Virus record (IMG/VR): IMGVR_UViG_3300037159_000009
Location: 1-33,925 of that record
Source of the DNA: a virus
Strand: one strand, 5' to 3'
Length of the DNA stretch: 33,925 nt
Made by a program: the position numbers and the translations under genes. The notes beneath the pieces are model-generated. The model did not search any database and was not told the origin of the DNA. It saw only the letters and a list, made by a program, of their open reading frames with translations. Shown in pieces: positions 22,157-32,325 of the stretch; the stretch's first letter is position 1, and the number at the start of each line of letters is the position of its first letter.

Positions 22157-23470
22157 TTAGTAATGCCACTCTAAGGCGTAACCGAGTTCCTGGAGCACAG
22201 GCAAGTCGCGCTCGAGCTTCTCGCCAATGTCATCCCTCCAGCCGGGCGAATGCGGTATCTCGATTGTCTTGAGCGCGCGCTTGGCGCGCTTGGCGGCACC
22301 GTGAATATCGAAATCCGTACCAGTCGCTACAAGCACGTAATCGCCGCACGTGACCGGCCCTTTCTTGTAGACGATCTTGTCGTCTTCTTCGTCGGGCACT
22401 TCGCCGAGCATCACTTCGCAGAAGTGGATGTCTTCCGTCACCAGGCGATCGGTGTTGTAGATCGCGTAACCGGTCGCGTTGCGTTTCGTGTACGCAGTGA
22501 AGGGGTAGTCAGGGATGGTCACCACGACGCCCACGGCGGTCTCATCAAGCACTTCGAGCGTGTCCTCGCCGTGCAGCGCGTCGAGCATCCATTGTGCAGG
22601 GTCGCCTACGTGCAGCGCGGTCTGGATAATGAAGCAAGGCCACCCCGGGCGGCTAGTCGCTTCCAGGGGCCACGGAACGCCTTTGTCGTCGATAATCGCA
22701 GCCATGTCGAAGTAACCGCGAAAGTTGATCGAATGGAGGTAGGAGGTCAACGGCGTGAGCAGCTTGTCAACAAGCTTGGACTCTTTGACGTACCGCATAA
22801 CCGTGCCCTGCTCGCCGGTGTTCACGCCCGTGTCGCCCGGCAAGTGCTTCTTGTGTTCGATGTTCTCCAAAAACCATTTCGACCATCCATTCTTACCGAA
22901 CCAACCGCCAACCGCCATCTCAATACCGCGAACGAATGGCTGGAGAATGAACCCCTGCGTTTGCGGTTGCTCTTTCTTCCAGCGGTCAAGCATGCCGATC
23001 ATGTCGCGCGGGCTCTTGCTCACGTAGGAAAGCGCTTTGTCTACGTCGCCGTTCGGCTTGCTGACAAAGCGCTCCATCGTTTCACTGACGTGCTTTTTCG
23101 CGGTATCGTAGTCTTTGAATTCCTGCGAAGGCATCGTTTTGATGCCGACCTTCTTGAAAAGCGCTTGCCCTGCTTGCCGGTTCAACTCGAGATCCGCACC
23201 AGCCTTGTTCGGGCCGAAGATCGGATAGCCTTTCTTGAAATAAGGCTCCATGTCTTCCATCAGATTCGCGTTGTCGCTCGTTACGATCAGATCCGCCCAC
23301 CCCATATGCGCGCGCCAGTCCGCGACTTTGGAAACGTACCCGTCGCCGATAGGGTTGCGCTTCTCGTTGTCGCGCGGCATTACCCACAAGCGCACATCGT
23401 GGCCGGCGTCGATGCATTTCATGCTGAAGTCCAGCATGCCGCCGATACAGTCCACAAGCAGAATTTTCAC
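22157..23470 (-). CDS. PurD-like ATP-grasp ligase
   Basis: The 437-residue protein starts at GTG 23470 (AGGA six bases before) with MKILLVDCIGGMLDFSMK and follows the GARS (phosphoribosylamine-glycine ligase) layout: a small N-terminal domain, then YPIFGPNKAGADLELN, LFKKVGIKTMPSQEF, and the ATP-grasp core with LPGDTGVNTGEQGTVMRY, the equivalent of the PurD DTGPNTGG loop. The expected LEFNxRFGDPE metal site is LEATSRPGWPC here, keeping Glu but losing the Asn and GDPE. It should ligate an amine or amino acid to a carboxylate with ATP, but the substrate probably differs from PurD. It is in a virion/lysis operon, an odd place for a purine enzyme. Confidence 0.75.
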   Translation of the reverse strand: MKILLVDCIGGMLDFSMKCIDAGHDVRLWVMPRDNEKRNPIGDGYVSKVADWRAHMGWADLIVTSDNANLMEDMEPYFKKGYPIFGPNKAGADLELNRQAGQALFKKVGIKTMPSQEFKDYDTAKKHVSETMERFVSKPNGDVDKALSYVSKSPRDMIGMLDRWKKEQPQTQGFILQPFVRGIEMAVGGWFGKNGWSKWFLENIEHKKHLPGDTGVNTGEQGTVMRYVKESKLVDKLLTPLTSYLHSINFRGYFDMAAIIDDKGVPWPLEATSRPGWPCFIIQTALHVGDPAQWMLDALHGEDTLEVLDETAVGVVVTIPDYPFTAYTKRNATGYAIYNTDRLVTEDIHFCEVMLGEVPDEEDDKIVYKKGPVTCGDYVLVATGTDFDIHGAAKRAKRALKTIEIPHSPGWRDDIGEKLERDLPVLQELGYALEWHY

Positions 23471-23478
23471 GGAAGTCC

Positions 23479-23530: not shown

Positions 23531-23836
23531 ATGAAACGAATTCTAGCATTTGCACTCCTGGCGCTGTCCGCCGCCGCGCACGCCGACGTTACGCTTATGG
23601 GTACGGCCGCAAACGCAGCAGGCGGAACGCTCGCTCTTTTTAAAAACGTTGACGAGTGCAACACGGGCGTCGGCGTCTTGCTGAAGTTACCTTTTACTAC
23701 GGGCATTCCCGGCTGCGTTACGTCGCTAGCCGCCGACGGTACAGTACATGTCTATTTTCAAAACGGGCTCGAAATGGACTATCCTGTTTCGATCTGGACT
23801 AAAGTACCGGTCAAAACTTCTGAAGGAGCAATGTAA
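23531..23836 (+). CDS. Secreted small protein encoded against the late operon
   Basis: The 101-residue protein has a signal peptide MKRILAFALLALSAAAHA (cleavage after residue 18). The mature 83 residues include two Cys (43 and 62) that could form a disulfide, and beta-rich segments (GTVHVYFQNGLEMD, VSIWTKVPVK). GGAG seven bases before ATG 23531 and a promoter 25 bases upstream make it an independent unit. It opposes the surrounding minus genes, the arrangement of a moron. It may alter the periplasm or outer membrane, for example superinfection exclusion; no family is recognised. Confidence 0.8.
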   Translation: MKRILAFALLALSAAAHADVTLMGTAANAAGGTLALFKNVDECNTGVGVLLKLPFTTGIPGCVTSLAADGTVHVYFQNGLEMDYPVSIWTKVPVKTSEGAM

Positions 23837-23895
23837 TGATCGCTTTCCTGTTCGTCGCCTTCCTTGTCGCTTTCTACTTGTGCGACAACAATTAA
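23836..23895 (+). CDS. 19-aa membrane micropeptide
   Basis: ATG 23836 shares a base with the preceding TAA (TAATG) and has GGAG nine bases upstream. The 19 codons begin MIAFLFVAFLVAFYL and end CDNN, a single hydrophobic helix. It ends four bases into the convergent minus gene. With the upstream secreted protein it forms a two-gene cassette. Such short membrane peptides occur in toxin or exclusion roles, but here this is only a guess. Confidence 0.55.
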   Translation: MIAFLFVAFLVAFYLCDNN

Positions 23896-25787
23896 CGACT
23901 GCCTTTTATGTCGGTTGACGCCGCCGCGCCGCCCGCAATCCGGCTCGCGCCCGCAAGCAGAATATCCATCACGTTTTTAGGCGCGCCGCCCGCTTTGATT
24001 TTCGCCAGGCCGCCGGGCTTCGCCGCCATCTGAATGATGTTGAGTGCTTGCTTCTCGGACATGCCTGTACCGGTAAGCAAGCGCGCGGTTGTGCCGACCA
24101 CGTGGCCGAGTCCGCCTACGACGTTGGCGGCATGTGACGCCATGCGAGATTCGTTCTCTTCGTGGAAAGCCGCCTGACGGTTGCCTCCTTTCGACATGTC
24201 GGCGGTAACTCGCTGGCGCGCAGCTTCCTTCTCGAACACCTTACGCACGTCGTTTGCACCTTTAGGACCGAGAACTTTCTCGACTTCGGGCGTGCGCAGC
24301 TTGTCCGCGATCTTCGTGAGCGAACCTTCCGTCATGCGGCTGTTGCCCGCCAGGTACTCATCTAGGCCGTTCAACATGCCTAAGCGTGCGTACTGCACCA
24401 TCTCCGGGTTGCCTTTGATCTTATCCCAAGCGGAGGTATCCGCCTTCTTGAGACCGAACGCGAATGCGTGGCCGAACTCTTGCGCGCCGATAACGCCCGA
24501 ACCGTAAGCGTTGCCCGCTGTAGGCGAATCGCCGCCCATGCGCGCCGCCAAGCCTTGAGCGCCCTTAGTAGCGTCAGACTGCTGGTCTTTAATCGCCTGC
24601 TGCGCAGCTTTCAACGTGCCGTAGCGAATCGACCCAGTACCTTCCTCTTGCGCGGCGTTGCCTATCGACTTCTGCAAGTCATCGAGGACGGCAGACGGGA
24701 TTTCCGATCCGGCTTTGTATTTCGGCGTATTCGCCACATCGGCAACGCCGGCCGCACGCGCGCCGCCGTAATCCTTCAAGGCTTTTGCGAGCAGCGGTGC
24801 AACTTCAGGGTGGTCGAGCGTCTTTTGCAATTCCGGCGTGATCGGCGCAATTTCGGCTTTCGAAGCGCTGTAGGCGGTTTTCGTTTGCTTGGAAAGATTG
24901 CCGAGGTCGTCAATCATTTGCTGCTTGACCTTGTCGAGCGGCCGCCCCTGCGCGACTTCGCCGGAGATGCGCCCGGACTGGCCTTCGGCGTCTTCACGCG
25001 TCGCGGTTCCCAAAGCTTGGCTTGTCTTGTTCGTTACCCCGCCGGCCTTGCCTACCGCTTCGGCCACCTTGGGCGAGAAGTCTGCCGCCCGCGCGTTAGG
25101 GTTCGTCTCGAGGAAGTTTTGCAAGTCGTCCATCGTCTTGCCTTCACTCTTGAGCGCCATCTTCACTTTCTCGAAAGCACCTTTCGAAGCGTCGATAGCG
25201 CCCATCTTTTCAAGAGCCGGCTTTGCGATCTTGCCGAGGTAGCCTGCCGCGCCGCCGATAGCGCCGCCCACTGCGGCACCCTTGGCAGCAGCCATTCCGC
25301 GCGTTGCTGCGTCGCCGCCCTCGCCTGCGCCTTGTAGCGCGCCCATAGCCGCGCCGCCGGTCGCGAGCCGCCCAATCGTACCTGCTACTCCGCTAACGCC
25401 AACAGTCGGAACGGCAGCGCTTTGTACGGCTGCCGCTGCCAGGTCGATACCGAACGCCGCCATCGGGTTATCGTGGTCGTAGTCCTTCTGCATCTGGCGC
25501 GTGACGTGCTCGGCCTGCTTGCCGAAGATAGCGCCGTCGAGATCCGCGCCGAAACCGAACGTCAACGACTGGTAGACCTTGTTGATTGCGGCGTCGGAAG
25601 TCGCAGACTTCTTCATTTTGCCGATCTGCTCATCCGCGCCGATAGCGCCACGGATGGTTTTCGGCTTGCCGGTCGCTTGCGGCGCAGGCGTGTTTTCTTC
25701 CGGCGGTGCTTGCGTGCCTGTCGTAGCGCGCCCCTGCGCGTCGGTAGTCGGGTTGGTGATCGGGCCCGTGTTGTCGATATCCGGCAT
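23892..25787 (-). CDS. Large internal virion/ejection protein, Ala/Gly-rich
   Basis: The 631-residue protein starts at ATG 25787, which shares a base with the TGA of the upstream transglycosylase gene; a TTG at 25790 is less likely. It has a disordered Asp/Thr/Pro N-terminus (DIDNTGPITNPTTDA), a Gly/Ala-rich stretch around residues 105-190 (AAAVQSAAVPTVGVSG, LATGGAAMGALQGAG) that could insert in membrane, and long helical parts. This pattern and its place after two other such genes fit a P22 gp16-like or T7-like ejection protein that forms part of the DNA channel through the envelope. No enzyme motif is seen. Confidence 0.65.
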   Translation of the reverse strand: MPDIDNTGPITNPTTDAQGRATTGTQAPPEENTPAPQATGKPKTIRGAIGADEQIGKMKKSATSDAAINKVYQSLTFGFGADLDGAIFGKQAEHVTRQMQKDYDHDNPMAAFGIDLAAAAVQSAAVPTVGVSGVAGTIGRLATGGAAMGALQGAGEGGDAATRGMAAAKGAAVGGAIGGAAGYLGKIAKPALEKMGAIDASKGAFEKVKMALKSEGKTMDDLQNFLETNPNARAADFSPKVAEAVGKAGGVTNKTSQALGTATREDAEGQSGRISGEVAQGRPLDKVKQQMIDDLGNLSKQTKTAYSASKAEIAPITPELQKTLDHPEVAPLLAKALKDYGGARAAGVADVANTPKYKAGSEIPSAVLDDLQKSIGNAAQEEGTGSIRYGTLKAAQQAIKDQQSDATKGAQGLAARMGGDSPTAGNAYGSGVIGAQEFGHAFAFGLKKADTSAWDKIKGNPEMVQYARLGMLNGLDEYLAGNSRMTEGSLTKIADKLRTPEVEKVLGPKGANDVRKVFEKEAARQRVTADMSKGGNRQAAFHEENESRMASHAANVVGGLGHVVGTTARLLTGTGMSEKQALNIIQMAAKPGGLAKIKAGGAPKNVMDILLAGASRIAGGAAASTDIKGSR

Positions 25788-27886
25788 CAAAAGTGCCCTC
25801 CGTTGCTGAAGAAGTCATCCGGCTTTTTGTAGGCCGGGTTCGGCGTCCCATCTTCCAAGGTCGGCAGCAAGACGGTGTTCGGGACCATCTTCCGACTGGC
25901 CGGGTCGAATATTTGCGTTGGCCCGGCCGCCCGCTCGTATCTGTTCCACTGCAAGACGCCGGATTGCGCTGTCGCTTCCGGGTTCGCTGCCCTGTACTTC
26001 TCAAGAAAAGTATTCATCTGAACCTGCCCCGCCGCGCCCACAAACAGTCCGTGTGCTACTGCTAAGTTAGCTTCGGGCGCCAGGCGAACGCCAGGCTTGG
26101 CACGAGCATAGTTAGCGTACATCGCCGCCGTGGACGCCGAGCGCGCACCACCGTTTGCGCTGGATAACATCTGCATTTGCTGAACCATATTGGAAGTGAG
26201 CTTGTCGAATTCTTGCTGGTCCGACGAGAGTAAGTACGAACCTCCACCGAAGCCCTTGCGCTCGGCCACGTTCTCGGCTTCGTTGTTGAAGATTCCGCCT
26301 GTGCTTACTGTTTTATTCTTTACAGCAACGTACGCCTGCGCCGCCAAGTCGGACAGCGCCTTGGCACCTTGAACCGCCGGCGCTGTCGCTTTGTCGTAGG
26401 CCGCATTCTGCGTCTGCACCTGTTTGCGTGCGGCTGCTAACTGAACTTCCGTAGTACCTACCGGCGCGCTCGCAGCAATGGAAGGCGCGAAAGGCAAACC
26501 GCTCTTTTCGATTTGCTGCTGGCGTGTCGTATCCGCAATAATCGCCTGCTGCTGCTGTATCTTCGGCAAATCTGCCTTAGCCTGAGCACGTTGATCGATC
26601 TGTTGCTTGAGCTGAAACTCTTGTTGCTTGATCTGATCGTTATGTTGCTGTGCAAGCGTTTCCGTGCGGCTCGCGAGAGTCGCTACCTTGTTGCGGTCTT
26701 GGTTGTAGTCCCCCGTCAAGCCTAATCCCGCAACTGCGGACTGCATAGCGGGGTTGCGCGCGATCTGCGTCCGGAAGTTATCGAGCGAGCTCTGGTCGTT
26801 CACGCCTACCGCCAGTTTCGCAACTTCGTCGTTCGCGTCCTTCTGAACGCCGTAGCCTTCCTTCTGCGTCTTCAAAGCCTGATCGACGAGCCCGTTTGCT
26901 TTCTCAGTGAACGCCTGCCCCGCCTTAATGTTTCCGGCTTGGAACGCCTTTTGCGCGGCGTCCTTGTACATCGATGCCTGCTTAAGCGCCCCCTGTGCGC
27001 TTTGCTGGTAATCATCCGGGCGCACATCGGCGCCCGCATTAACCTTGGCCGTAAGGTTGTCGATCGGGCTCGGTGCTTTCAAAGCCGCGTCTTGCTGCTG
27101 CGCCTGTTGGCTTTGCTGCTGGCCCTGCTGAAGTCGGCCGAGTGTCGTCTTGACGTAGTTCTGCGTGGCCGGCGGGAGTTGATCCGGCTTGCGCCCGTTC
27201 TGGATCCACTTGTCAGTGTTCTGGGGCCCCCAATTGTAGGCGATCAACGCGTCAGTCGGGTTGCCGTAGCGCTGTTGCATCGCGCCGAGATAGTCCATGC
27301 CCACGCGCTGCTTTTCAGCGGGCGAGTCGTTCTGCGCGGGTTGCACGCCGTAGCCTGGATTTTGCAGCGTGCCGGGCATCGTCTGCATGGTCCCGCTGGC
27401 GCCTTTAGGCGACACTGCCGCCGCCTGGCCGTTCGATTCGGAAGTCATAACCGAGCGCTGCAACGGCGTGAGCGGCTTACCGTTCATCTGACCGTTCTGC
27501 GTGGCCGGCAAGCCGCCGGTTGAAGCCGTCATCTGCGGGACACCGACCGACGCGAGATTTTGCGCGGCGCCATTCGGGTTCGGCTGCGCAATTTGGCCGG
27601 AAATGCCTTGCGGTTGCTGACCTTGTGGCGCCGCACCGGCAAGACCTTGCGCACCGCCGTACGTATCCTGCGCCGCGTCGGTGAGGAACCCGGTTGACGC
27701 TTGATCCTGGTTGACAGCGTTCTGCGTTTGCTGATTCTGAAGCTGTAGCGCCTGATTCTGAAGCTGCGCCTTTTGCAAATCGGCAGCTTGCGCTTGGCGC
27801 TGAAATGCCAATTGCTGCTGCTGCGCGTTGTAGTCGTTGAACGATGACGCCGCGCTCGAAAGAAGGTTCCCCCACAGTGCTGGCAT
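25787..27886 (-). CDS. Internal virion protein with lytic transglycosylase domain
   Basis: The 699-residue protein has a Gln/Ala-rich N-terminus, then an SLT domain at about residues 138-250: LQRSVMTSESNGQAAAVS with catalytic Glu 150, ASGTMQTMPGTL, and ALIAYNWGP. The rest is a long Gln/Lys/Ala-rich helical region with coiled-coil character (QFQLKQQIDQRAQAKADL-type). It should be ejected with the DNA and open the peptidoglycan locally. It lies between two other ejection proteins. ATG 27886 follows the previous gene by two bases. Confidence 0.85.
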   Translation of the reverse strand: MPALWGNLLSSAASSFNDYNAQQQQLAFQRQAQAADLQKAQLQNQALQLQNQQTQNAVNQDQASTGFLTDAAQDTYGGAQGLAGAAPQGQQPQGISGQIAQPNPNGAAQNLASVGVPQMTASTGGLPATQNGQMNGKPLTPLQRSVMTSESNGQAAAVSPKGASGTMQTMPGTLQNPGYGVQPAQNDSPAEKQRVGMDYLGAMQQRYGNPTDALIAYNWGPQNTDKWIQNGRKPDQLPPATQNYVKTTLGRLQQGQQQSQQAQQQDAALKAPSPIDNLTAKVNAGADVRPDDYQQSAQGALKQASMYKDAAQKAFQAGNIKAGQAFTEKANGLVDQALKTQKEGYGVQKDANDEVAKLAVGVNDQSSLDNFRTQIARNPAMQSAVAGLGLTGDYNQDRNKVATLASRTETLAQQHNDQIKQQEFQLKQQIDQRAQAKADLPKIQQQQAIIADTTRQQQIEKSGLPFAPSIAASAPVGTTEVQLAAARKQVQTQNAAYDKATAPAVQGAKALSDLAAQAYVAVKNKTVSTGGIFNNEAENVAERKGFGGGSYLLSSDQQEFDKLTSNMVQQMQMLSSANGGARSASTAAMYANYARAKPGVRLAPEANLAVAHGLFVGAAGQVQMNTFLEKYRAANPEATAQSGVLQWNRYERAAGPTQIFDPASRKMVPNTVLLPTLEDGTPNPAYKKPDDFFSNGGHF

Positions 27887-27888
27887 AG

Positions 27889-29076
27889 TTACCCCGTAAA
27901 GCCGAATGAGTTGCTGCCGCCGTAGGTGTAGTCGGCACCCGACTGGCCTGCTGAGGTGCCGTACAGCGCGCCGCTGCCACTGATGTCAGACCCGGACGTG
28001 CTGGTGCCGTCTCCGCTGTTGAAGTCGCCCGTGTAGCCGCCAGTGGACGAGCTGCCGAAAGCGCTATTCGCCAATTGCCCCGCGCCTTGCGCGAGTTGGC
28101 CGATACCCGCGCCGATAGACGATCCGGCGGCGTTGTACTGGCCGAGCAACATGTTCGCTGCGGACGTGTTATTGCCCACGCCCGCTAGGTTCGAAATTTG
28201 GTTATATCCTTGGCTGTTCGTCGCCAAGGAACCTTGATTCGCGCCCGCCAATTGGCCGTAGGCTTGCTGGTTGCCTTGGAGCGCCAACTGAGAAGCCGAT
28301 GAATTCTGCCCGTAAGCCTGCTGATTCGCTTGCAGACCAAGACTGGCGTTGTTTGACAGCTGGCTGTAGTTCTGCTGCTGCTGACCGGCAGCTTGCGTCG
28401 AGAGGCCGGAAAGCTGCGACAACTGCGTGTTGTAGGCGTTCTGTCCGAACTGCTGCCCGTAGCTTTGCAGTGCGGCAAGCTGATTACCAGAGGCGTTGAG
28501 CCCCTGCGCAGCCAGGGTTGAGTTGACAGCCTGCGACCCCTGCCCGAACGCGGCTTGGTATTGCGGCGTGTTGTAGACGCTGCCCGGATCTTGGATCAGA
28601 TTGTTGATCTGCGAGTTGATTCCGCCTAGGTTCAGGCTGTTCAAACCCTGCGAGCCGGCTTGGCCCGCTTGCAATGCGGGGTTGATGGCGTTCTGAGTGG
28701 CGCCCTGCGCCTGACCCGCCAACCCGATCGTCGGTGCGATGTACTGGTTCGTCTGGCCGCCGGTGTTGTTCGCGAAGTTCGTCAGCAGGTTCTGCGATTG
28801 CGAGCTCGCGTTACCGTACGTGCCGGCCGCAGCTTGCCCCGCCAGGTTTGAAGCTGAGGCGCCCGCGTACTGGTTGTAGGGCGAAGCCGTGTTAGCAAGC
28901 CCCTGCGCCTCACTGGCCGACAGCAGACCGCCAGCGATACCCGCTGCGCCGCCTACTGCGTTTGAGCCGCCTGAGCCGCCGAGAACATCAGAGGCAAGCA
29001 TGCCGCCGGCTGCGGCGGCAGCGCCGCCGGCGAGCGCGGAGCCTACCCCGGCGGCAGTTATCGCTGCGAATGGCAT
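27889..29076 (-). CDS. Gly/Ala/Gln-rich ejection protein
   Basis: The 395-residue protein begins MPFAAITAAGVGSALAGG, a hydrophobic N-terminus, and the remainder is Gln/Ser/Asn/Gly/Ala-rich low complexity with a recurring QQAYGQ unit (LQANQQAYGQNSSASQ, LQGNQQAYGQLAGANQ). The C-terminus is Gly/Ser/Asp-rich. Such composition and the location, first of three ejection-type genes, fit a P22 gp7/gp20-like protein. Low complexity makes homology searches unreliable. ATG 29076 overlaps the end of the cupin gene by 19 bases. Confidence 0.65.
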   Translation of the reverse strand: MPFAAITAAGVGSALAGGAAAAAGGMLASDVLGGSGGSNAVGGAAGIAGGLLSASEAQGLANTASPYNQYAGASASNLAGQAAAGTYGNASSQSQNLLTNFANNTGGQTNQYIAPTIGLAGQAQGATQNAINPALQAGQAGSQGLNSLNLGGINSQINNLIQDPGSVYNTPQYQAAFGQGSQAVNSTLAAQGLNASGNQLAALQSYGQQFGQNAYNTQLSQLSGLSTQAAGQQQQNYSQLSNNASLGLQANQQAYGQNSSASQLALQGNQQAYGQLAGANQGSLATNSQGYNQISNLAGVGNNTSAANMLLGQYNAAGSSIGAGIGQLAQGAGQLANSAFGSSSTGGYTGDFNSGDGTSTSGSDISGSGALYGTSAGQSGADYTYGGSNSFGFTG

Positions 29077-29372
29077 ATCAGTACCTCGTCTACTTTTTCG
29101 GGGTCTTTCTCTTCAGTTGCGTGAACGCAAAACCAAACCGAGTCTTTCAGAGCACAAATGCGGTGCTTCTTGCCCGCCGGGATATTAATCGCGGTCGGGC
29201 CTGTGTGAATCGTTGTCACACCGTCGATGTCCGCAGCCACGATGCCCGATGCCAGGATCGACAAGTGGTCGTATTTGTGCTCGTGCGTGACCGCTTCAGA
29301 GCCCGCCGGCAGGTGCATCTGTTTGGCGTACACGCCCTCGGAAAAGTGGTGCTTGATTTTCAAATCAACCAT
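29058..29372 (-). CDS. Cupin-fold protein
   Basis: From ATG 29372 the 104-residue protein has the cupin motif 1 cluster THEHKYDHLSILASG (His 30, 32, 36) and motif 2 near INIPAGKKHRI (His 70). Three or four His residues suit a metal site. Size is that of a single-domain cupin. It overlaps the 2OG oxygenase by eight bases and the first ejection gene by 19, so all are co-translated in the late operon. The reaction is unknown, as cupins range from dioxygenases to isomerases or pure binding proteins. Confidence 0.8.
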   Translation of the reverse strand: MVDLKIKHHFSEGVYAKQMHLPAGSEAVTHEHKYDHLSILASGIVAADIDGVTTIHTGPTAINIPAGKKHRICALKDSVWFCVHATEEKDPEKVDEVLICHSQR

Positions 29373-29937
29373 TTTTGAACATGTCCGTTCTGATGCAAAC
29401 GATAAGCGTAACCCGGTCCTGCCCGCTGTTGTTCGTGACCCAATGTTCGTGACGGTTATCGAACCGGTACACGTCGCCAACCTCGGGTTCGATAGACTCG
29501 TTTTCCGAACAGAATTTCGCACCCGGGCCTGCGACAAGTGAAATGTAAAACTTGTCGTAGTAGTCTACGTGCCAACTTTTGTCCTTATGGGGGTCGATAC
29601 CCTGCCCGTGCGGTATGCGCGTAATCAACACGCCGCCGAGCATTTCACCTTGAACTCGCGTCATTAAATCGAAAATGACGGGTTTTAAAGCAGGAACTGC
29701 GGTCCAGGCTTCATACCAGACGGGTACATGCTCGTCGTTGAAGCCGGTCAAATCGCCTTTTGCAAGGTATTTCTGCACATCATTGTACCGCACCCATATG
29801 TCTTTCATGCCGGCGTGTGCGGAACCTTCCGCCGTTCGCCGGAAAGGATTCCGATCCCACAGTTCCGGGTGCGCTTCCAGTTGTGCGTTAATCGCCGACA
29901 CATCAACCGTGTACGGTAGCTTCTTGAACAGCTTCAA
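29365..29937 (-). CDS. 2OG-Fe(II) oxygenase / aspartyl-hydroxylase-like protein, TTG start
   Basis: The 190-residue protein starts at TTG 29937, overlapping the upstream TGA, with a strong GGAGG seven bases before. It reads MKLFKKLPYTVDVSAIN at the start. The double-stranded beta helix has IDPHKDKSWHVDYYDK (His 117 and Asp 119, the H-x-D pair), YRFDNRHEHWVTNNSG (a distal His at 163 or 165) and Arg 175 for 2-oxoglutarate. This is the H-x-D...H...R set of the superfamily. It hydroxylates an unknown target, protein or nucleotide. The open frame to 30039 is a shadow. It is unusual inside a tail gene cluster. Confidence 0.8.
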   Translation of the reverse strand: MKLFKKLPYTVDVSAINAQLEAHPELWDRNPFRRTAEGSAHAGMKDIWVRYNDVQKYLAKGDLTGFNDEHVPVWYEAWTAVPALKPVIFDLMTRVQGEMLGGVLITRIPHGQGIDPHKDKSWHVDYYDKFYISLVAGPGAKFCSENESIEPEVGDVYRFDNRHEHWVTNNSGQDRVTLIVCIRTDMFKNG

Positions 29938-31601
29938 AGCGGACCCTCCGCGAGGTTCGGGAGCTCCAAGGTGTAGAATCGCACCTGGAAGCCGCCGATA
30001 TACAGCAGCGAGAACGAGCGACGCCGCGACGCCGCGCATCGCTTAAGCATTGAGCGTGCCGCACCGAGGTTGACCGGCCGGAACGATCCGAAACTAGCGA
30101 AATCGTTATCCGAATACCCAACGTAGGCCGTATCCTGCACCTTGTCGGCGATTACCTCGATATGCGGAAAGAATTTCTCTTTATTCGACCCAAAATCGCC
30201 CGCATTAGTGCGTAAAAGGCCGTAAATGAACACCCCATTGTCGCTGGAAACACCTTGCTGCATCTTGTAGGTAATGCCATTGGTGGCGCCTAGCAGGTAG
30301 TCGGTATTGTTTGCGAACGTGTAGAACACGGGGTTGAAGAAGTTCTGCACGTAAGGTGTTATCACCAACTGCCCTAAACCTGTCGCTGTTGACGTAGTGC
30401 CGGTCTCCGTATCGATCGTGAACGTGTTTATCGTTTGACTGTTGATACCGCCGCCTACGCCGCCTGTACCCTGCGTATAGGTGATTGTGTTCGCGTCAAC
30501 CACATTAGCGACGAACGTACCGAGGAACATCGGTGCCGAGTTGGCGCTGGTGACTTTGACTACGAGCGGGTTATTAAGCCCGTGGTTCGGTAAGGTGACA
30601 GTGATAACAGCGTCCGAAAGCGAAGCGCCCGCCGCGTTCTGCGCGGTGCCGAGCGCCGAACTAGACCAGCGCGACCACATGCCGGCCTGCGCGTTATAAG
30701 CAAGCGTGCAATTGCTCGCCGTGAGCGTCAAGACGTAGAACACGCCGCCGTTCACTTCCAAGAGGTAGGCGTAGACGCCGGTAAGCGGATCCGCGTTCAG
30801 GATCTTCTCGATAAATTCATCGGAAATCGGCTGCGGCGCGAGTCCGTTCATCATATAGACTTTGCGGCCCTTCTGATGCGTCTGGCCAATCCAGAACAGA
30901 TTGTTCTCACTCGCTACCATCGAGGTCCCGACCGCGCAGCCGACGTTCACAACTGCCGAGATGTTCGGGAGCAAGGGGGAGCCGGTTGCGTTACCGTTGT
31001 CGTAGAAGAATGTCGCGGAGAACGTGCCGAACGACGCCACGTAGTTATAAAGCCGCGTGACGCAAGCACCAGGGTCCGGCGACAAGCTGCCGTTAATCGT
31101 ATTCAGCGCATTCCACGTGGCGGGCGTGTTCAGATTGCTATTGGTGAGAATGCCTCCTGGCGTGAGCACGAACACGTAGCCGTCAAGCCAAGCTACGCCT
31201 GGAACGGTCGCGGCGGGGTAGTTCGCGTCTGTTACTTGCGTGAGTACCGAGCCGTTCCACGTGTAGGCGGCGGCATTATTCTTCAGAAAAACCGCCGTGC
31301 CGCCCTGGCCTGTCAACGTGAACTGATATTGGCTTGAGCCGTCCACGGTGCCGCTCGACGCGCCATCCGAATAGAAAGTCGTGCCGACGACTTCCAAAAC
31401 GTGAGTGCCGAACGAGAAAAGGCCGAGCGCAGCGCCGGCGGCGACCGTTATCGCCGGCTGGATACCGAAACGGCGTTCAGACAGGACTTGGCCGTTGCTG
31501 TTCTGCGTCGCGTAGTAGTTATACATGATGGCGTCTGCCACCATCGTGGAGTCACGCGTCGAGATGGTTTGCGCCCATTGAATGCGCTGTGTATCAGCCA
31601 C
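29934..31601 (-). CDS. P22 gp10-like tail / packaged-DNA stabilization protein
   Basis: The 555-residue protein starts at GTG 31601, overlapping the gp4-like gene by eight bases. It is a beta-rich protein with repeated Gly/Thr/Asn turns (VLTPGGILTNSNL, NNLFWIGQTHQKGRKVYM, ALAPQPISDEFIEK) that resembles the phage stabilisation family (P22 gp10). These plug and extend the portal to hold the DNA and receive the tail needle or spike. Its position beside the gp4-like gene supports the call. I see no tail-needle gene within the window. Confidence 0.65.
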   Translation of the reverse strand: MADTQRIQWAQTISTRDSTMVADAIMYNYYATQNSNGQVLSERRFGIQPAITVAAGAALGLFSFGTHVLEVVGTTFYSDGASSGTVDGSSQYQFTLTGQGGTAVFLKNNAAAYTWNGSVLTQVTDANYPAATVPGVAWLDGYVFVLTPGGILTNSNLNTPATWNALNTINGSLSPDPGACVTRLYNYVASFGTFSATFFYDNGNATGSPLLPNISAVVNVGCAVGTSMVASENNLFWIGQTHQKGRKVYMMNGLAPQPISDEFIEKILNADPLTGVYAYLLEVNGGVFYVLTLTASNCTLAYNAQAGMWSRWSSSALGTAQNAAGASLSDAVITVTLPNHGLNNPLVVKVTSANSAPMFLGTFVANVVDANTITYTQGTGGVGGGINSQTINTFTIDTETGTTSTATGLGQLVITPYVQNFFNPVFYTFANNTDYLLGATNGITYKMQQGVSSDNGVFIYGLLRTNAGDFGSNKEKFFPHIEVIADKVQDTAYVGYSDNDFASFGSFRPVNLGAARSMLKRCAASRRRSFSLLYIGGFQVRFYTLELPNLAEGPL

Positions 31602-32325
31602 GGTAGTTGGCGTATCCTCGCCGATCTGGCGTAAAGAAAGTCGGTGCCTCTTCTTGATCCCAGTTCAACATGTCTTCAAGGTAGCGGTTCGCGTTGCGCT
31701 CTACGCGCGCCGCGACGCTCTCAGGCACGAAGTACTCAGGGAGAAGTTGCTCGGCGAGTCCCCATTTTATCGCGTTCGTCCACTCAATAGGGAAGTCGAA
31801 AGCGTCGCCCGCGTTGAGCACATCGGCGATAGGCCGCTGACAAGTAAGCGTAACGATGTTCGCTTGCGCGTCGGGCGCCAGGTACAGGCTCAACACGCCG
31901 TTGTTCAACTGCGGATCGTAGTAGTAGCTGTTCGGCGTGCCTTGCGCGCCTTTCTGCCCCAACTGGTCGTATTCTTGGCGTGAAAGCTGGATCAAAGGCA
32001 CTTCAAGCGCGGGTTGACCTGCGTTGACGTACTGAATCCGTGCCATCGGAATGCGCAGCACGCGATACGCCTGCAAACCGACAGTGGGCGACGTAGGACC
32101 GATGAGGTACTGAATCTGGCCCTGCACGACAGTAAAAGGCAAGTCGGTAACGCACCAGAGAGGATAGTTCTTGCTCATCCAATACTTGATCATCATGTTC
32201 AAGGACTGGGCGGCGTTGTTCAAGTCCGTCTGCGGAGGCGGGGAGTCATCATTGAACTGCCCGATGAGACGAAACGCGGCCTGAATGAGCGTTTGCTGAT
32301 TGACGGTGAAGGTGTACGTAGCCAT
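31594..32325 (-). CDS. P22 gp4-like tail accessory protein
   Basis: From ATG 32325 the 243-residue protein begins MATYTFTVNQQTLIQAAF and has RLIGQFNDDSPPP, LNNAAQSLNMMIKYWMS and a C-terminal helix with WGLAEQLLPEY, the pattern of P22 tail accessory factor (gp4-like) and tail tubular adaptors. It attaches first below the portal after DNA packaging. The C-terminal Gly/Tyr tail (DRRGYANYRG) is short. The frame open to 32601 is a shadow over the upstream tail gene. Its start overlaps that gene's stop (TAATG). Confidence 0.75.
   Translation of the reverse strand: MATYTFTVNQQTLIQAAFRLIGQFNDDSPPPQTDLNNAAQSLNMMIKYWMSKNYPLWCVTDLPFTVVQGQIQYLIGPTSPTVGLQAYRVLRIPMARIQYVNAGQPALEVPLIQLSRQEYDQLGQKGAQGTPNSYYYDPQLNNGVLSLYLAPDAQANIVTLTCQRPIADVLNAGDAFDFPIEWTNAIKWGLAEQLLPEYFVPESVAARVERNANRYLEDMLNWDQEEAPTFFTPDRRGYANYRG

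Follow-up and report, generated by a model that had tools for sequence, protein, structure and literature searches.

Structural virion proteins with post-translational modifications are known from the Cellulophaga phages, in which such proteins are methylated, by a process thought to depend on host enzymes in at least one phage (PMC13288928). These phages offer a precedent for modified structural virion proteins of the kind considered below, but without a phage-encoded hydroxylase (PMC13288928). The closest described counterparts of the oxygenase examined here (OXY) are the AspH family and L-proline cis-4-hydroxylase. OXY shares with these enzymes the fold, the H-x-D...H iron site and a 2-oxoglutarate (2OG)-binding arginine ten residues past the last histidine. 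However, it is only about 13-18% identical to the nearest solved members, lacks the TPR domain, and is the product of a phage late gene coupled to a cupin.

That cupin (CUP) is homologous to the PHA00672, phrog_12032 and phrog_24280 cupins of Vibrio, Shewanella and other podoviruses, which mostly occupy the same slot before a 'DNA ejection' gene. Unlike CUP, these slot cupins have no adjacent OXY, and most have gained an N-terminal extension and lost two metal ligands, with lysine or arginine in their place (K/R-x-H, KR). Every protein family at the locus is already known; what the literature searched does not contain is a conserved module of this kind, with partners that exchange and a link to ejection genes. 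An initial annotation of this DNA had stated that it knew of no described phage system with this set, and none was found for OXY-CUP beside ejection genes in the open-licence literature searched, although such a search is weak evidence of absence. That the locus represents a new kind of system is possible, if rather unlikely. The comparisons below suggest that the OXY-CUP pair serves to modify components of the virion chemically.

The OXY-CUP pair in its late operon

The window, meaning the whole stretch of DNA analysed, is a 33.9-kb linear virus contig from a short-tailed phage with its late genes on the minus strand. A nucleotide search of the window against phage records returned no match, and no structured RNA or tRNA was detected in it. 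No portal, scaffold or capsid gene was recognised in positions 1-33925, and the terminase lies at the left end, so the contig is probably short by a few kilobases. Along the minus strand, tail-fibre-like genes are followed by an adaptor gene (31594-32310), a head-closure gene resembling Hc3 and P22 gp10 (29934-31601; phrog_578, 2e-35), OXY (29365-29937), which encodes a 190-residue 2OG-Fe(II) oxygenase of the PF05118 family, and CUP (29058-29372), which encodes a 104-residue single-domain, four-histidine cupin of the phrog_12032/24280 family. Three ejection-type genes on the same strand complete the order. The first (27889-29076) encodes a low-complexity, A/G/N/Q/S-rich protein of 395 residues with no direct match in the Pfam and PHROG profile databases; it is assigned by its position and by family c3, and in the relative L002 the protein in its place matches the 'DNA ejection' family phrog_21132. 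The second (25787-27886) contains an SLT transglycosylase domain (PF01464, 8e-15), and the third (23892-25787) belongs to phrog_5880.

From the Hc3 gene to the third ejection gene the spacing is -4, -8, -19, +2 and -4 nt, so that Hc3 and OXY overlap by 4 nt, OXY and CUP by 8 nt (ATGGTTGA), and CUP and the first ejection gene by 19 nt. Because the genes overlap, translational coupling of OXY, CUP and their neighbours is plausible. The initial annotation had described two coupled genes inside a structural operon, and both are present at exactly these coordinates, flanked by the Hc3/gp10-like gene on one side and the ejection and transglycosylase genes on the other. In relatives, the third codon positions of both genes vary about two to five times more than the first and second, and dozens of divergent contigs contain the pair as well; the substitution pattern indicates that OXY and CUP evolve as proteins and are not chance ORFs.

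OXY scores 36.8 bits against PF05118 (gathering cut-off 22.6, E 4.4e-9; Pfam), and all 36 aligned members of its family match PF05118 at E<=0.01. It begins with TTG behind GGAGG, a start that is the same in relatives. On the basis of family and conservation, H117, D119 and H165 are assigned as iron ligands and R175 as the 2OG-binding residue. The histidine, aspartate and histidine of the iron site are kept in 77/77 distinct OXY sequences and the arginine in 71/77; the divergent OXY proteins of L024 and L027 carry a tyrosine where this arginine normally stands, which counts against a modifying role for the pair. Apparent OXY fusions in L050 and L056 were rejected, as their extensions resemble read-through of another frame and not a domain. 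PADLOC defence-system models matched no system, the sole match being to a generic weak 2OG model (E 0.007).

The OXY model (pLDDT 95) finds its nearest solved folds in proline cis-4-hydroxylase, AspH and proline 3-hydroxylase, a set that includes hydroxylases of free amino acids. This bears on the substrate, for which the initial annotation had allowed DNA. Other families of 2OG oxygenases do act on DNA or nucleotides (AlkB and TET/JBP), and ALKBH6 appears among the more distant fold matches. However, the family of OXY, its closest folds (proline, Asp/Asn and amino-acid hydroxylases) and its late position with ejection genes all point elsewhere, and the protein searches revealed no partner gene for nucleotide modification. 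Modification of phage DNA or nucleotides by OXY is consequently regarded as extremely unlikely.

CUP matches phrog_12032 (E 6e-21) and scores 21.0 bits against Cupin_2, below the cut-off of 27.2, which the relatives L100 and L358 exceed. The predicted structure (pLDDT 92) folds as a cupin barrel with Foldseek E-values of about 1e-6 to many cupins, and the solved structures nearest to it are small cupins whose functions are diverse or unassigned, KdgF and CelOCE among them. H30, H32, H36 and H70 are the predicted metal ligands, and all four histidines are intact in the 63 distinct cupin sequences found adjacent to OXY (63/63). The identification of a metal-dependent oxygenase beside a cupin-fold protein in the initial annotation is thus borne out by the PF05118 match, the barrel model and the conserved ligand residues.

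Among deposited phage records, 57 contain a CUP homologue, often under the name 'short tail fiber' or 'adhesin'. These names, in PHROG as in the records, would make OXY and CUP structural virion proteins, with the cupin as a piece of a tail fibre or adhesin. In the same direction, many slot cupins without OXY have no metal site, so that branch of the family is hardly a metal enzyme. Against a structural role, the metal ligands are invariant in OXY and its partner cupins, which purely structural proteins do not require. Moreover, the one paper found to name the PHA00672 domain gives it as a hypothetical phage protein and no more, and proteomic support for the 'short tail fiber / adhesin' naming was not found in the open-licence literature searched. 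A structural role for the pair is therefore quite unlikely, and the cupin family matched in these records bears the name 'tail fiber adhesin' without support.

The four-histidine site is not confined to cupins beside OXY. Among 79 cupin sequences without the full set of four histidines, none has an adjacent OXY, but 51 cupins with all four also lack an adjacent OXY, and most of these lie beside terminase in another lineage. An exclusive dependence of the four-histidine cupin on OXY, suggested by a small set, was dropped after the larger set gave these 51 cases. CUP therefore has an OXY-independent role too, a point that weighs against the modification of virion proteins as the sole explanation of the pair. 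Two cupin sets retrieved with histidine-sensitive search patterns are unusable for histidine frequencies. In L021 (2682-3005) and about 35 relatives, phages of another lineage, four-histidine cupins with no adjacent OXY lie directly 3' of the terminase large subunit gene.

The slot and its exchangeable partners

Alignment-based scans of viral contigs confirmed 394 relatives of OXY, at least 548 of the nearby ATP-grasp protein (described below) and at least 579 of CUP. In the loci fetched, OXY mostly follows a head-closure or nozzle gene and precedes the first ejection gene, and this position holds across several structural gene sets that are too divergent to cluster together. Of the distinct OXY loci, 78 have flanks long enough to judge the partner, which is CUP in 59 of them, one of these also containing a GNAT protein. 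The other partners are a sulfotransferase-like protein (11 loci) and GNAT (three loci), and the five loci with no recognised partner speak against the proposed modification. Ten OXY loci in bacterial genomes, several from Burkholderiales, largely repeat the pattern, with CUP in six, a sulfotransferase-like protein in one and neither in three. Those with OXY and CUP resemble prophages, for example in Cupriavidus basilensis KF708 and Paraburkholderia kirstenboschensis LMG 28727.

None of the 78 distinct OXY loci combines CUP with the sulfotransferase-like protein, and CUP is set against sulfotransferase-like or GNAT partners with a Fisher p of 1.6e-10 when kinship is ignored. At least four changes of the sulfotransferase-like partner fall on supported branches of the tree, and a single origin is rejected (AU p 9e-7). 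In almost every independent comparison CUP is absent where this partner appears, with 0 same and 3.6 opposite among four independent pairs. Because supported branches provide only these four pairs, the sign test on partner swaps cannot reach significance (median p 0.125), and the exclusion of one partner by another lends correspondingly less weight to the idea that both act on a virion protein.

The sulfotransferase-like family has a conserved PRS motif, one member passes Sulfotransfer_3, and a family profile places sulfotransferases first among solved structures, although weakly (E 0.008). In PHROGs the family is called 'hydrolase', and phrog_10855, which bears that annotation, resembles a PAPS-type sulfotransferase (L018:9424-10026, L080:9534-10004, L143:752-1258 and others).

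In phages without OXY the slot is held by a GNAT protein, a sulfotransferase-like protein or a cupin. Slot cupins with a C-terminal SET domain, possible protein lysine methyltransferases, were found in five podovirus contigs (L007:6896-7771, L173:85-987, L188:2420-3181, L190:2405-3235 and L194:2375-3259), three of them above the Pfam cut-off; the carriers include Pseudoalteromonas phage PH1 and, below the cut-off, Rhodoferax phage P26218. The corresponding place in T7, between tail gene 12 and ejection gene 14, is filled by gene 13, which encodes an internal virion protein (PF11090). The likeness is one of genomic place: homology of T7 gp13 with the slot GNATs was considered and rejected when sequence comparison gave no detectable match, and no similarity to the sulfotransferase-like family was detected either. 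A T7 gene 13-like protein (phrog_308) is encoded directly upstream of OXY and CUP at L020:9519-10001.

Slot content also varies with tail-fibre pieces and unassigned ORFs, as would be expected if the slot were a recombination hotspot gathering unrelated small genes, with OXY and CUP as dispensable cargo that has no joint function. Random cargo would not be expected to keep the OXY-CUP order in 61/64 placements over divergent backbones, nor to show mutually exclusive partner types, and we consider this explanation quite improbable. Hydroxylases, acetyltransferases, sulfotransferase-like proteins and SET proteins belong to families that modify side chains of proteins or small molecules, and the enzymatic theme shared by the occupants of the slot may therefore point to protein modification. 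It is conceivable, though doubtful, that podoviruses maintain an interchangeable protein-modification station beside their ejection genes, in which a hydroxylase is followed by a cupin, sulfotransferase-like or GNAT protein, with SET proteins in relatives that lack OXY.

Block exchange with the ejection genes and the ATP-grasp neighbour

The relative L027 closely matches the window in Hc3 (85%), ATP-grasp (86%), helicase (87%) and polymerase (89%), but far from it in OXY (47%), CUP (43%) and the three ejection proteins (46-50%). Continuous DNA similarity between L027 and the window breaks off on the final base of Hc3 (29934) and restarts at 23472, the ATP-grasp start, with only short weak matches between. 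The Hc3 gene is thus the upstream boundary both of the slot and of the exchanged cassette, and the third ejection gene is the end of the latter. L024, whose ATP-grasp is 98% identical to that of the window, has the same exchanged block on the side that its contig covers; over L024 and L027 together the values are 47% for OXY, 43% for CUP and 39-50% for the three ejection proteins. As OXY, CUP and all three ejection genes diverge as a block in both relatives, OXY-CUP travelled with the ejection genes, and from these alignments the pair moves with them, independently of the adaptor, head-closure and ATP-grasp genes. However, neighbouring genes may also be transferred together because of their position and not their function.

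A second trace concerns composition. The asparagine content of the first ejection protein is 9.8% in the presence of OXY against 6.9%, with p 1e-4, and Hc3 and the adaptor show no such enrichment. After descent is accounted for, the enrichment rests on three to four independent pairs, too few to exclude common descent, and it adds correspondingly little to the case for an ejection protein as the target.

The block exchange also bears on whether OXY and CUP act instead, late in infection, on a host or virion-surface target, such as the envelope, a surface glycan or a host protein, or are themselves packaged and injected as effectors. The slot adjoins the genes for injected proteins, with the internal virion protein of T7 gene 13 in the corresponding place; it also houses tail-fibre fragments and sulfotransferase-like genes, and the nearest cupins include the sugar-acting enzymes CelOCE and KdgF. 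Nevertheless, the block exchange takes in the ejection genes but neither the adaptor nor the head-closure gene, and neither OXY nor CUP has a signal peptide by eye. A target of this kind is judged unlikely, and a substrate within the virion is preferred.

The remaining neighbour is a PurD-like ATP-grasp ligase (22157-23470, minus strand), which lies outside the module. It is a distant homologue of PurD (phosphoribosylamine-glycine ligase), scoring 69 bits against TIGR00877, below the PurD equivalog cut-off of 288, and it has a conserved R-x-G-W-P where PurD chains carry R-x-G-D-P. This motif and an invariant T-G-E are found across the family (the window, L023-L033 and L111-L180), and its viral relatives, at least 548 in number, usually lie just after the last large ejection gene. 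In the window, ATP-grasp and the third ejection gene are separated by 421 nt holding a small conserved gene on the plus strand (23531-23836; MKRILAFALLALSAAAHA...). The product of this gene is apparently secreted (signal peptide by eye), and some relatives have a membrane-protein-like ORF instead.

The initial annotation had placed ATP-grasp in the same transcript as OXY and CUP; because the conserved opposite-strand gene intervenes, a transcript shared with the late operon is unlikely. It had also envisaged a three-enzyme pathway, which would here mean that OXY, CUP and ATP-grasp together produce a small molecule or peptide tag. All three do occur together in the window, in L010, L012, L016, L024, L027, L045, L051, L053, L070, L071 and L115, and in the Paraburkholderia locus L360. 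However, no ATP-grasp lies within 10 kb downstream of OXY in 19/34 loci with enough sequence, and OXY is lacking from 28 of the 44 ATP-grasp loci with enough upstream sequence (it is present in 16/44). ATP-grasp is likewise missing from the complete OXY records MW202665, PfAn1 and DC33. Two of these are cultured phages: PfAn1, a Pseudomonas phage of P. fluorescens that has OXY with a GNAT, and DC33, a phage of Limnohabitans. It also recombines apart from the OXY-CUP-ejection cassette, and in L024 the match to the window extends to 23785, so the region upstream of ATP-grasp stays with it in the recombinant. ATP-grasp was rejected as a third member of the module on the grounds of co-occurrence, transcription context and separate breakpoints, and a joint three-enzyme pathway is very unlikely. 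The proposed co-occurrence of the three genes in relatives holds for OXY and CUP and often fails for the full set.

Proposed function in the virion

The initial proposal of a late-expressed module that modifies the virion retains its hydroxylase and cupin, given their active sites, position, co-inheritance and the interchangeable enzymes of the slot, but loses the ligase, given the occurrence and recombination data above. In the form favoured here, the late module would hydroxylate, and then further modify, side chains of internal virion proteins such as the ejection proteins, a reading at somewhat less than even probability, in which conserved catalytic residues and co-inheritance are observed, and substrate and activity inferred. 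No biochemistry or virion proteomics bearing on it was found in the literature searched.

In a large group of podoviruses, OXY and CUP would form the hydroxylation unit of a late module within the cassette for ejection proteins. Produced with the virion proteins, OXY would draw on Fe(II), O2 and 2-oxoglutarate to place a hydroxyl group on the side chain of an amino acid, Asp or Asn being the likeliest and Pro less likely, as its family and conserved residues suggest. Co-inheritance and gene overlap would place the target on a protein encoded in the ejection cassette, and the favoured substrate is the first ejection protein, which is translated right after CUP. CUP may be its metal-dependent partner, either acting on the hydroxylated product or stabilising it. 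Because partners exchange, CUP or its substitutes presumably act next on the same target; in sister phages a sulfotransferase-like or GNAT enzyme replaces CUP, as though these phages placed a different group on the hydroxyl or on the same target. The modification would occur before or during assembly and could tune the packing, portal transport or function of the injected proteins.

Ejection proteins refold, traverse a narrow portal and form a channel across the cell envelope. We know of no earlier phage-encoded modification system for injected proteins, and if the proposal is true this would be the first; T7 gene 13 would then belong to a slot with an enzymatic theme. A widespread hydroxylase with swappable partners, co-inherited with ejection proteins, would implicate covalent modification in ejection, an idea that can be tested by mass spectrometry in cultured phages.
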